NCBI GenBank assembly: GCA_020160935.1
Contig: JAIUPL010000003.1
Span: 186,001 to 250,000, forward strand
Direction: 5' to 3'
DNA length: 64,000 nt
From: Bacteroidota bacterium
GTDB lineage: Bacteria; Bacteroidota; Bacteroidia; Chitinophagales; Saprospiraceae
This document shows, one piece after another, positions 36,955 to 39,785 of this stretch. The notes beneath the pieces are model-generated. The model was given only the letters and a program-made list of their open reading frames with translations, ran no database searches and was not told the DNA's origin. Each line of letters begins with the position of its first letter. The stretch's first letter is position 1. A program made the translations under genes and the position numbers.

Positions 36955-36968
36955 GTGACAAAAGTCAC
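36955..36968. promoter_or_regulatory. Crp/Fnr-type operator upstream of the regulator gene
   Basis: GTGA-CAAAAG-TCAC (36955-36968) is a dyad, symmetric as TGTGAC-aaaa-GTCACA, and is followed by ACAG. The same GTGA-N6-TCACACAG occurs at 37702-37719. It is centred about 62 bp before the predicted transcription start, the class I position of Crp/Fnr activators, which suggests autoregulation. Confidence 0.6.
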
Positions 36969-37011
36969 ACAGCATGTCAGCCGCATTCCTCAAATTTGCT
37001 CTGTTAAACTA

Positions 37012-37019
37012 TAATTTTG
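37012..37019 (+). promoter_or_regulatory. -7 promoter box of the Crp/Fnr gene
   Basis: TAATTTTG matches TAnnTTTG. No good -33 TTTG stands at the usual spacing, which is common for promoters that rely on an activator. Confidence 0.55.
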
Positions 37020-37051
37020 CACACTATTTAAGCACATTGAAACCTCATTGC

Positions 37052-37678
37052 ATGGATAAATACCGGTATATGTTTAAAGACTTTGAGGAGGGTTTGTTTG
37101 CCGAATTGAAGTCAAAAGGTCGCATTGTGGAAGCAAAAGCAGGCCAATCACTGCTGGAAAGTGGTCAGTACATCCGCAATACCATGATCGTACTGGAAGG
37201 CTTGGTCAAACTTTTTCGCGAAAGCGATGAAGGCAGCGAGTTTTTTATGTACCACCTTCACCCCGGCGAAAGTTGTGCGCTGTCGCTGATTTGTGACCGG
37301 AATGTTCGTGCCAGTTCGGTCACAGCCAAAGCCGTCACCGATGCCGTTTTGCTGGTAGTGCCCCTGGAACACACCGAGAACTGGATGCGCCAATACCGAA
37401 CCTGGTATCATTTTGTAGTGGGCACTTACAGGCGTCGCTACGAGGAATTGCTGGAAACCATCGATCATATCGCTTTCCAGAATATGGATGAACGCCTGGA
37501 ATTTTATTTGCGCCGACACCAGAAAGCACTTAACTCGAATGTTCTTGAAATAACCAATACCCAGATCGCACAGGAACTAAACTCCTCTCGGGAGGTAGTG
37601 TCTCGTTTGATGAAAAAATTGTCTGAAAACGGAAAAGTGCGCTTGCTCAAAAACGGTATAGAGATACTGAAACTGTAA
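37052..37678 (+). CDS. Crp/Fnr family transcriptional regulator
   Basis: The ATG at 37052 (MDKYRYMFKDFEEGLFAELK) gives 208 residues. The N-terminal half is a cNMP-binding-like beta barrel (SGQYIRNTMIVLEGLVKLFR, MYHLHPGESCALSLICD); the C-terminal half is a winged helix (NTQIAQELNSSREVVSRLMK). The protein has only two Cys, C75 and C81, close together in the barrel, and no Fe-S cluster motif like Fnr. The neighbours are sulfur enzymes, so a thiol switch responding to persulfide or redox state is plausible. The likely operators are at 36955 and 37702. Confidence 0.93.
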   Translation: MDKYRYMFKDFEEGLFAELKSKGRIVEAKAGQSLLESGQYIRNTMIVLEGLVKLFRESDEGSEFFMYHLHPGESCALSLICDRNVRASSVTAKAVTDAVLLVVPLEHTENWMRQYRTWYHFVVGTYRRRYEELLETIDHIAFQNMDERLEFYLRRHQKALNSNVLEITNTQIAQELNSSREVVSRLMKKLSENGKVRLLKNGIEILKL

Positions 37679-37701
37679 TTCCCTGCAATATTTTTGCGTA
37701 C

Positions 37702-37715
37702 GTGATTTTTATCAC
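37702..37715. promoter_or_regulatory. Crp/Fnr-type operator upstream of the persulfide dioxygenase gene
   Basis: GTGA-TTTTTA-TCAC followed by ACAG repeats the half-sites and spacing of the site at 36955. It is centred about 42 bp before the expected start of transcription (from the CATCTTTG box at 37739-37746), the class II activator position. Confidence 0.6.
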
Positions 37716-37738
37716 ACAGATCGCCCGAATGAGGCACA

Positions 37739-37746
37739 CATCTTTG
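37739..37746 (+). promoter_or_regulatory. -7 promoter box of the persulfide dioxygenase gene
   Basis: CATCTTTG resembles TAnnTTTG. With the following TGCTATCAAA it is identical over 18 bp to 8963-8980. Confidence 0.5.
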
Positions 37747-37815: not shown

Positions 37816-39234
37816 ATGAAAATTGAACAAATTTATACCGGATGCCTGGCCCAGGGTGCATACTATATCGAGAGTAATGGCGAGGCCGTGGTGATAGACC
37901 CGCTGCGGGAGGTAGAGCCTTATTTGGAAAAAGCGAGAAAAGACAATGCTACTATTAAGTACGTATTTGAAACGCACTTCCATGCCGATTTTGTGAGCGG
38001 ACATATCGATCTATCAAAAAAATCGGGCGCGCCCATCGTTTACGGCCCTACTGCAAATCCTACTTTCGAGTCCTATATCGCCAAGGACGAGGAAGAATTC
38101 AAGGTGGGAAATATTACTTTTCGGGTATTGCACACCCCCGGGCACACTATGGAAAGCACTTGCTACTTGCTGATCGATGAAAATGGTGAAGAAAAGGCCT
38201 TGTTTTCCGGCGATACACTGTTTATCGGAGATGTAGGCCGTCCAGACCTCGCACAAAAAGCAGCCAGCATGACGCAGGAACAACTGGCCGCTACCCTGTT
38301 CGATTCTCTGCGAAACAAAATTATGACCTTACCCGACGATGTAGTGGTTTACCCTGCACACGGCGCCGGTTCTGCTTGCGGCAAGAACATGTCTAAAGAA
38401 ACATATGACTCACTTGGACATCAGAAAGCAACCAACTACGCCTTGCGCCCCAATATGACCAGGGACGAATTTGTCAAGGAGGTGACCACTGGCCTCATGC
38501 CTCCCCCAGCCTATTTCCCGCTGAATGTAGCCATGAACAAAAACGGCTACGACAGTATCGATGAGGTCATTAAAAGAGGTACGCATGCCCTTTCACCCCG
38601 AGCATTCGAAGTAGCCGCTAATGAAACGGGCGCTCTAATTCTGGATACCCGTAATGCGCAGGTTTTTTCAGAAGGCTTTGTACCCAACTCCATCAATATT
38701 GGTATCGATGGCAACTTCGCCCCTTGGGTGGGTGCTTTGATACCTGACCTGAAACAGCAAATTCTACTCGTTACTGACCCGGGCCGTGAGGAGGAAGTGG
38801 TTACGCGCCTGGCTCGTGTAGGTTATGATTATTGCATCGGTTACCTCGATGGCGGATTTGAAGCCTGGAAAATTGCAGGGATGGAAATCGATCGTATCGA
38901 ACGTGTAAATGCAGATCAACTGGCAGAAATCCTGGCAGCCAACCCCGATACGCCCGTTTTTGATGTGCGCAAACAAAGCGAATACCTCAGCGAAAGAATC
39001 GAGCATGCTGAAAATGCCCCGCTCGATTTTGTAAATGAATCCATGCTTGCCATTCCAAAGGACAAACCTGTCTATGTGCATTGCGCTGGTGGATACCGTT
39101 CCATGATTTTTGCGAGTATCCTGCGCGCCCGTGGCTACGACAACCTGATCGACGTGGCTGGAGGATTCAAAACCATCAAGGAGAGTGGAAAATTCCACTT
39201 AACTGATTACGTTTGCCCTACTACCCTACTCTAG
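37816..39234 (+). CDS. CstB-like persulfide dioxygenase-rhodanese fusion
   Basis: This 472-residue protein has three domains. Residues 1-245 are a metallo-beta-lactamase fold with ETHFHADFVSGH (H54, H56, D58), HTPGH (H110), FSGDTLF (D133) and YPAHG (H182), the iron site of ETHE1-type persulfide dioxygenases. Residues ~260-355 are a rhodanese fold without the Cys loop (VTDPGREEE instead). Residues ~365-465 are a rhodanese with an intact Cys at 423 (VHCAGGYRS). MBL-pseudorhodanese-rhodanese is the layout of staphylococcal CstB, which turns low-molecular-weight persulfides into thiosulfate. Cytoplasmic sulfide/persulfide detoxification is inferred from this and from the neighbours. Confidence 0.88.
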   Translation: MKIEQIYTGCLAQGAYYIESNGEAVVIDPLREVEPYLEKARKDNATIKYVFETHFHADFVSGHIDLSKKSGAPIVYGPTANPTFESYIAKDEEEFKVGNITFRVLHTPGHTMESTCYLLIDENGEEKALFSGDTLFIGDVGRPDLAQKAASMTQEQLAATLFDSLRNKIMTLPDDVVVYPAHGAGSACGKNMSKETYDSLGHQKATNYALRPNMTRDEFVKEVTTGLMPPPAYFPLNVAMNKNGYDSIDEVIKRGTHALSPRAFEVAANETGALILDTRNAQVFSEGFVPNSINIGIDGNFAPWVGALIPDLKQQILLVTDPGREEEVVTRLARVGYDYCIGYLDGGFEAWKIAGMEIDRIERVNADQLAEILAANPDTPVFDVRKQSEYLSERIEHAENAPLDFVNESMLAIPKDKPVYVHCAGGYRSMIFASILRARGYDNLIDVAGGFKTIKESGKFHLTDYVCPTTLL

Positions 39235-39329: not shown

Positions 39330-39785
39330 ATGAAAAACATCAATCAATACCTGCTGGGCGCTACTTTTCTTCTTGCGCTGATTGCCATGCGTCCACAATG
39401 GAATAGTTACTCCGGGCAAACAAGTCTGGATGAGAAAAAAACACACCGCATCGTTTTTCATGTAACCACACCGGATACGGCAGCCTATCGCGCGCTGTCG
39501 CGCCAAATTGTGCATGTGCTGGAACATTGGCCGTCGGCTCAGATAGAAGTAGTGGCACACAACAAGGGTATCGGCATGCTGGAGAAGAAAAAAAGCAATG
39601 TCGCCGACAGGATAACTGCTCTGACCGCACAAGGAGTGCGTTTTGTTGCTTGTGAGCAGACCATGAAAATTCAAAAATTGGAGAAATCAGACATTTTGCC
39701 CGACGCAGGCTTTGTTGAACGCGGCATCGTACATGTAGTGGAAAGACAGGAAGAAGGCTGGGCATACATCAAAGCCGGCTTCTAA
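39330..39785 (+). CDS. DsrE family protein
   Basis: This 151-residue protein has an N-terminal hydrophobic segment (about 7-22), probably a signal anchor. The rest fits the DsrE/DsrF-like fold: THRIVFHVTTPDTAAYRALS, QIEVVAHNKGIGML and GVRFVACEQTMKIQKL, where the single Cys sits at the place used for sulfur relay. AGFVERGIVHVVERQEEGWAYIK is the family end. It follows the persulfide dioxygenase gene after a terminator, so it belongs to the same sulfur context though possibly not to the same mRNA. Confidence 0.85.
   Translation: MKNINQYLLGATFLLALIAMRPQWNSYSGQTSLDEKKTHRIVFHVTTPDTAAYRALSRQIVHVLEHWPSAQIEVVAHNKGIGMLEKKKSNVADRITALTAQGVRFVACEQTMKIQKLEKSDILPDAGFVERGIVHVVERQEEGWAYIKAGF

Follow-up and report, generated by a model that had tools for sequence, protein, structure and literature searches.

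Two palindromes beside a Crp/Fnr-family regulator gene and a candidate sulfur-oxidation regulon in a Saprospiraceae genome

The regulator–dioxygenase locus

We analysed a 64-kb stretch of DNA (64,000 nucleotides; hereafter, the window) from a bacterium of the family Saprospiraceae. The window lies within contig C14 of a 5.84-Mb genome in 51 contigs, and the features considered here are as follows.

36955–36968, no strand assigned: candidate operator 1, GTGACAAAAGTCAC, read from the sequence; 5′ of the regulator gene, centred at about −41.5
36991–36998, + strand: predicted −7 box of the regulator promoter, CAAATTTG; TTTG 26 bases past operator 1
37052–37678, + strand: gene for a Crp/Fnr-family regulator of 208 amino acids (Pfam PF00027 and PF13545)
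37702–37715, no strand assigned: candidate operator 2, GTGATTTTTATCAC, read from the sequence; 5′ of the persulfide dioxygenase gene, centred at about −42.5
37739–37746, + strand: predicted −7 box of the dioxygenase promoter, CATCTTTG; TTTG 27 bases past operator 2
37816–39234, + strand: gene for a persulfide dioxygenase–rhodanese fusion of 472 amino acids (MBL fold plus rhodanese; PF00753, PF00581)
39330–39785, + strand: gene for a DsrE/DsrF-like protein (PF02635)

A sequence-only reading of this locus had placed GTGA-N6-TCAC sites 5′ of the regulator and dioxygenase genes, and both are present, at 36955 (GTGACAAAAGTCACACAG) and at 37702 (GTGATTTTTATCACACAG; GTGATAAAAATCAC on the opposite strand). 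Its description of the six central bases as completely different does not hold: both sixes have the form Y-WWWW-R, and their outer pair completes a palindrome, so that the sites are perfect 14-base palindromes, GTGAC-AAAA-GTCAC at site 1 and GTGAT-TTTT-ATCAC at site 2. The pattern occurs nowhere else in the window. Because 12 of 100 dinucleotide shuffles of the window also hold two or more such sites, the window alone cannot establish them; taken by itself it is weak evidence, and the sites barely exceed chance.

The predicted transcription starts lie at about 37003 for the regulator and 37751 for the dioxygenase. The start codon of the regulator at 37052 was set by ortholog alignment; a longer reading frame starting at 36974, six bases past the operator, was rejected, as the orthologs align from 37052. 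The stop codon of the regulator lies 23 bases 5′ of site 2. Pfam finds two rhodanese stretches in the fusion protein, whose gene probably shares an operon with the DsrE/DsrF-like gene; the latter is also found near the regulator in five other loci (L137, L140, L141, L146 and L147). The genome carries two closely similar dioxygenase–rhodanese genes, that of the window and a second at C40:11395–12813. The second copy lacks a separate operator and is probably transcribed behind the TauE gene as part of one operon.

A motif shared across the genome and its relatives

Used as a search motif, as the sequence-only reading had proposed, the exact pattern GTGAYWWWWRTCAC was found at eight places in the 5.84-Mb genome, mostly before sulfur genes or the regulator: two in the window, four on contig C40 in a span of 8.2 kb, and one each on C34 and C38. 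All eight have a TTTG 26 or 27 bases downstream, and a reversed control pattern gave none; this genome-wide motif, with a spacing absent from the control, makes the window sites credible. The C40 cluster encodes YeeE/YedE-type Sulf_transp proteins, an OprD-type porin, the second dioxygenase copy, TauE, an AraC regulator, a SoxB-like metallophosphoesterase/5′-nucleotidase protein, a SoxA/TsdA-type cytochrome c and, probably, a sulfide:quinone oxidoreductase (SQR); the names SoxB and SQR are those that we presume from Pfam domains and context. Its four operators precede the YeeE/YedE pair, the porin, TauE and the cytochrome, and no strict operator was found 5′ of the sqr gene on this contig.

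The candidate regulon thus delimited by sequence comprises at least eight sites, most of which precede sulfur genes or the regulator itself, with half of them in the second cluster. Its predicted members are the regulator, dioxygenase copy 1 with the DsrE-like gene, the cytochrome–SoxB operon, the OprD-type porin, the YeeE/YedE pair, a small membrane protein gene (C34) and a gene for a secreted, T9SS-sorted protein (C38); the TauE site probably covers dioxygenase copy 2 as well. A sulfur regulon, as suggested earlier, is supported; the pair in the window does not define it.

Several observations accompany these sites. The T9SS-sorted protein (site at C38:40005–40049; L030, 8037–8050) has 537 amino acids and a Por_Secre_tail domain, and the operator also stands 5′ of a similar gene from a different genus (L089, 1501). 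The C34 site (C34:34163–34207; L029, 9195–9208) precedes a gene for an 80-amino-acid membrane protein without a Pfam match, and the pattern also stands 5′ of other small membrane protein genes (L081, L082, L090, L094 and L095). Promoter patterns with one mismatch lie near two other Crp-family genes (C10:39736–39779 and C10:22952–22995), where cross-talk between paralogs is possible.

The geometry of these promoters was compared in a set of 46 from this genome and its relatives, for which the search had demanded TTTG alone. The spacing from operator to TTTG was 27 in 32 promoters and 26 in the other 14, and an A, which the search had not demanded, stands three bases 5′ of TTTG in 45 of the 46. 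Most of the boxes lack the T that opens the TAnnTTTG consensus and read nAnnTTTG. The ACAG downstream of both window sites, earlier taken as part of the motif, drops out of it: the four positions 3′ of TCAC are nearly uninformative (0.48, 0.03, 0.17 and 0.15 bits). Because the TAnnTTTG box of Flavobacterium occupies −12 to −5 (PMC9723704), the operators would be centred at −41.5 or −42.5. With the start read from the position of the box, this fixed spacing is what would be expected of class II Crp/Fnr-dependent promoters.

The earlier assignment of class II to the dioxygenase promoter agrees with this geometry; that of class I to site 1 finds no support, given a TTTG at 26. In the nearest relative, L137, whose regulator locus is 99% identical, operator 1 (as GTGACAAATGTCAC) and the TTTG at 26 (within the −7 region TTTGCTCTG) are kept, whereas TATAATTTTG, the box farther downstream that the class I (−62) reading requires, is not. 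At site 2 of L137 the operator is unchanged and the −7 box is kept with exact spacing, whereas most of the bases between them have diverged.

How far does the arrangement extend? A search with the regulator yielded 21 loci in records labelled Saprospiraceae, Chitinophagaceae or, less precisely, Bacteroidota, the close relatives being mostly named Saprospiraceae. Cultured species with a regulator of this clade include Flavisolibacter longurius (L154) and Paraflavisolibacter caeni (L152). With the near-identical L137 left out, the 20 orthologous loci contain 38 full promoters, against none in Markov shuffles; 26 of these sites have TTTG at offset 27 and 12 at offset 26, compared with 0.7 for each remaining offset. 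Counted by gene, with palindromes scored with or without TTTG, the palindrome precedes the dioxygenase in 12 of 13 orthologous loci, TauE in 13 of 14 (one more has a single mismatch), the cytochrome–soxB operon in 7 of 7, the porin in 4 of 10 and the regulator in 2 of 21, namely the window and L137. The upstream regions of orthologs, a comparison that the sequence-only reading had proposed, thus uphold the dioxygenase site, which is deeply conserved, and not the regulator site, which makes autoregulation a local feature. The sox cluster of several relatives includes the regulator gene, which in the present lineage seems to have moved beside a dioxygenase copy and gained its own operator.

The pattern is not exclusive to sulfur genes, because in other genomes of the family the same operator and −7 spacing precede hemN-like and hypA-like genes (L073, L083 and L086), which suggests that a related regulator serves other processes through the same site. 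In the wider family, the dioxygenase site is present in 4 of 30 genes whose genome has some related regulator and in 0 of 11 without one, a difference that is not significant, and most dioxygenase promoters have neither a GTGA nor a GTAAC site; the motif may serve related regulators in other roles. The dimeric Crp/Fnr-type operator proposed from the window is supported.

The protein likely to bind the operators

The regulator matches PF00027 and PF13545 above the cut-offs, with a cNMP-binding-type N-terminus and a C-terminal Crp-like winged helix, which places it in the Crp/Fnr family; its AlphaFold model (mean pLDDT 85) matches CRP-family structures. Its recognition helix, SREVVSR, contains R180, E181 and R185 (CRP numbering), and this R-E-x3-R triad is invariant in 21 aligned sequences of the clade. 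Together with GTGA half-sites and N6 spacing, the triad would provide for CRP-type operator recognition. We propose that both sites are very probably operators of the adjacent regulator, acting as a dimer and as a class II activator of sulfur-oxidation promoters. A regulator dimer would occupy GTGAYWWWWRTCAC centred at −41.5/−42.5, just 5′ of the would-be −33 element and beside a weak −7 box (nAnnTTTG, its leading T usually absent); because this box is weak, the promoters should need the activator. What we infer here is binding, a sulfur-species signal and, from the operator position, activation in place of repression.

Co-variation of helix and operator is the strongest test of which protein binds. 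In this family the half-site is dictated by residues 180 and 181 (PMC1274295), and we compared regulators 34–43% identical to that of the window. GTGA-type promoters occur nearby at 9 of 12 loci where the regulator has R-E and sulfur neighbours, and at none of 12 where it has R-V (E181V; Fisher p = 0.0003); when only sulfur-linked E181V loci are counted, the figure is 0 of 8 (p = 0.001). These and the following p values are guides and not exact, because the loci are related by descent. An unguided palindrome search returned GTGA for the R-E group (22 matches, 9 of 9 loci), a positive control inasmuch as those loci had been chosen for holding GTGA sites; for the R-V group it returned GTAAC-N4-GTTAC, with five sites in three loci and the same spacing, and there was no crossing over between the groups. 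Among dioxygenase promoters, those with an R-E regulator have GTGA in four cases and GTAAC in one, and those with an R-V regulator have GTAAC in four and GTGA in none (p = 0.048). The shift to GTAAC is seen in five exact promoters at three regulator loci and in four dioxygenase promoters of the matching genomes, which are partly the same sites. The sister clade thus shows an apparent regulon-wide switch of operator. E181V regulators of this kind, beside sulfur genes with GTAAC operators, were seen at L106, L113 and L129 and in G002, G005, G024, G030 and G033. Given the helix triad, the co-variation and the gene neighbourhood, the adjacent regulator is likely the protein that binds.

Might another protein bind, with the adjacent regulator a mere bystander? 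The genome holds nine matches to the Crp HTH model, and among the helices read only one besides this regulator carries the triad, that of a paralog on contig C48 (STREVVTR), which could therefore bind the same half-sites; the presence of the pattern 5′ of hemN-like, hypA-like and other genes in relatives points the same way. We nevertheless judge binding by this paralog very unlikely: changes in the operator go together with changes in the helix of the sulfur-linked regulator, which sits within the sulfur cluster in many relatives, and the C48 protein, used as a query against nine genomes that keep the operator, finds a single match in seven. These single matches are consistent with being the sulfur-cluster regulator itself, a placement seen directly for G040 and G141 and deduced for the rest; the paralog would then be missing from these seven genomes.

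It is also unlikely, in our estimate, that the adjacent regulator binds but represses, to be released by sulfur species. Repressors can usually act from variable positions, and class II activation fits the centre at −41.5/−42.5, the fixed −7 spacing and the weak −7 boxes, even though repression is how the known sulfide regulators SqrR/BigR (ArsR family) and CstR (CsoR family) act (PMC12170894, PMC8148161). That the palindromes arose by chance or act as RNA hairpins, such as a terminator behind the regulator gene, might be argued from their frequency in the shuffles and from the place of site 2 just past the stop codon; yet the hairpins are weak and not unusual (z of −1.75 and −1.06) and have no T-run, and the genome-wide TTTG spacing and conservation cannot be chance, so these readings are effectively ruled out. 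Activation by the adjacent regulator is the reading that we retain.

A possible signal, and comparison with known systems

The only cysteines of the regulator are Cys75 and Cys81. With none in the first 74 residues there is no N-terminal cluster for a [4Fe-4S] centre, and FNR proper is ruled out. CRP contacts cAMP through Glu72, Arg82 and Ser83; in an alignment by eye with CRP (4bh9), Glu72 falls in a gap, Arg82 is not Arg and the Ser is kept. The NCBIfam CRP model scores 34 bits against a cut-off of 266, and the protein is not a CRP proper, activated by cAMP. Cys75 and Cys81 are nearly invariant in the clade; among distant homologs the pair is not associated with sulfur neighbours (p = 1). 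No distance between the cysteines was read from the AlphaFold model, which is unreliable at residues 76–81 (pLDDT below 50). The signal is possibly a reduced or reactive sulfur species read through these two residues. The Crp of A. baumannii has been found persulfidated (PMC7315123), which makes persulfide sensing plausible by analogy and is not evidence for the present protein. Only tentatively, and with more doubt than confidence, do we combine these points into one statement: in Saprospiraceae and Chitinophagaceae, a Crp/Fnr-fold activator would sense persulfides via Cys75-x5-Cys81, where CRP binds cAMP, and control the oxidation of sulfide and thiosulfate; in its sister clade, E181V would accompany a regulon-wide shift from GTGA to GTAAC.

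In the literature searched, we found no Crp/Fnr sulfur regulon in Bacteroidota and nothing direct on a Crp/Fnr regulator of sulfide oxidation; the papers retrieved assign bacterial control of persulfide dioxygenase and sulfide:quinone oxidoreductase to proteins of the ArsR, CsoR and sigma-54 families. A Crp/Fnr regulon devoted to sulfur oxidation, as proposed here for Bacteroidota, thus had no earlier description among them. The motif turns this into a testable list of regulated genes, including the secreted T9SS protein and the small membrane protein, and the split between E181 and V181 is a natural test of a single residue against operator choice over a whole regulon.

Among known systems, SqrR/BigR (ArsR), CstR (CsoR) and the sigma-54 activator FisR govern the same kinds of genes, sqr and persulfide dioxygenase, but are unrelated to the window regulator in protein family and operator. 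Sulfur sensing has been shown for those proteins, which sense through key cysteines (PMC12170894, PMC8148161). The closest solved relative by sequence, and the first by fold, is a Crp/Fnr protein of Eubacterium rectale (EUBREC_1222, PDB 3dv8; E 2e-25 by profile), which has an aligned C-x5-C pair at only 24% identity. E. coli CRP, with its TGTGA-N6-TCACA operator at −41.5 in class II promoters, resembles the present system in fold, dimeric palindrome, R-E-x3-R triad, GTGA half-site and operator position. The window regulator differs from it in the gapped Glu72, the replaced Arg82, the two cysteines in that loop, the Bacteroidota −7 type promoters and a dedicated sulfur regulon in place of global control. 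HcpR1 and HcpR2, also of the Crp/Fnr family, use wTGTGA-N6-TCACAw or GTAAC-N4-GTTAC operators that follow residues 180/181 (PMC1274295). HcpR controls hcp and related redox genes, whereas the candidate regulon here holds mainly sulfur genes, and HcpR of P. gingivalis (9day) is a distant, weak match (E 2e-8 by profile). GTAAC is the operator of HcpR2, which likewise has no Glu181 (PMC1274295), and an HcpR2-like GTAAC operator recurs in the E181V sister clade.
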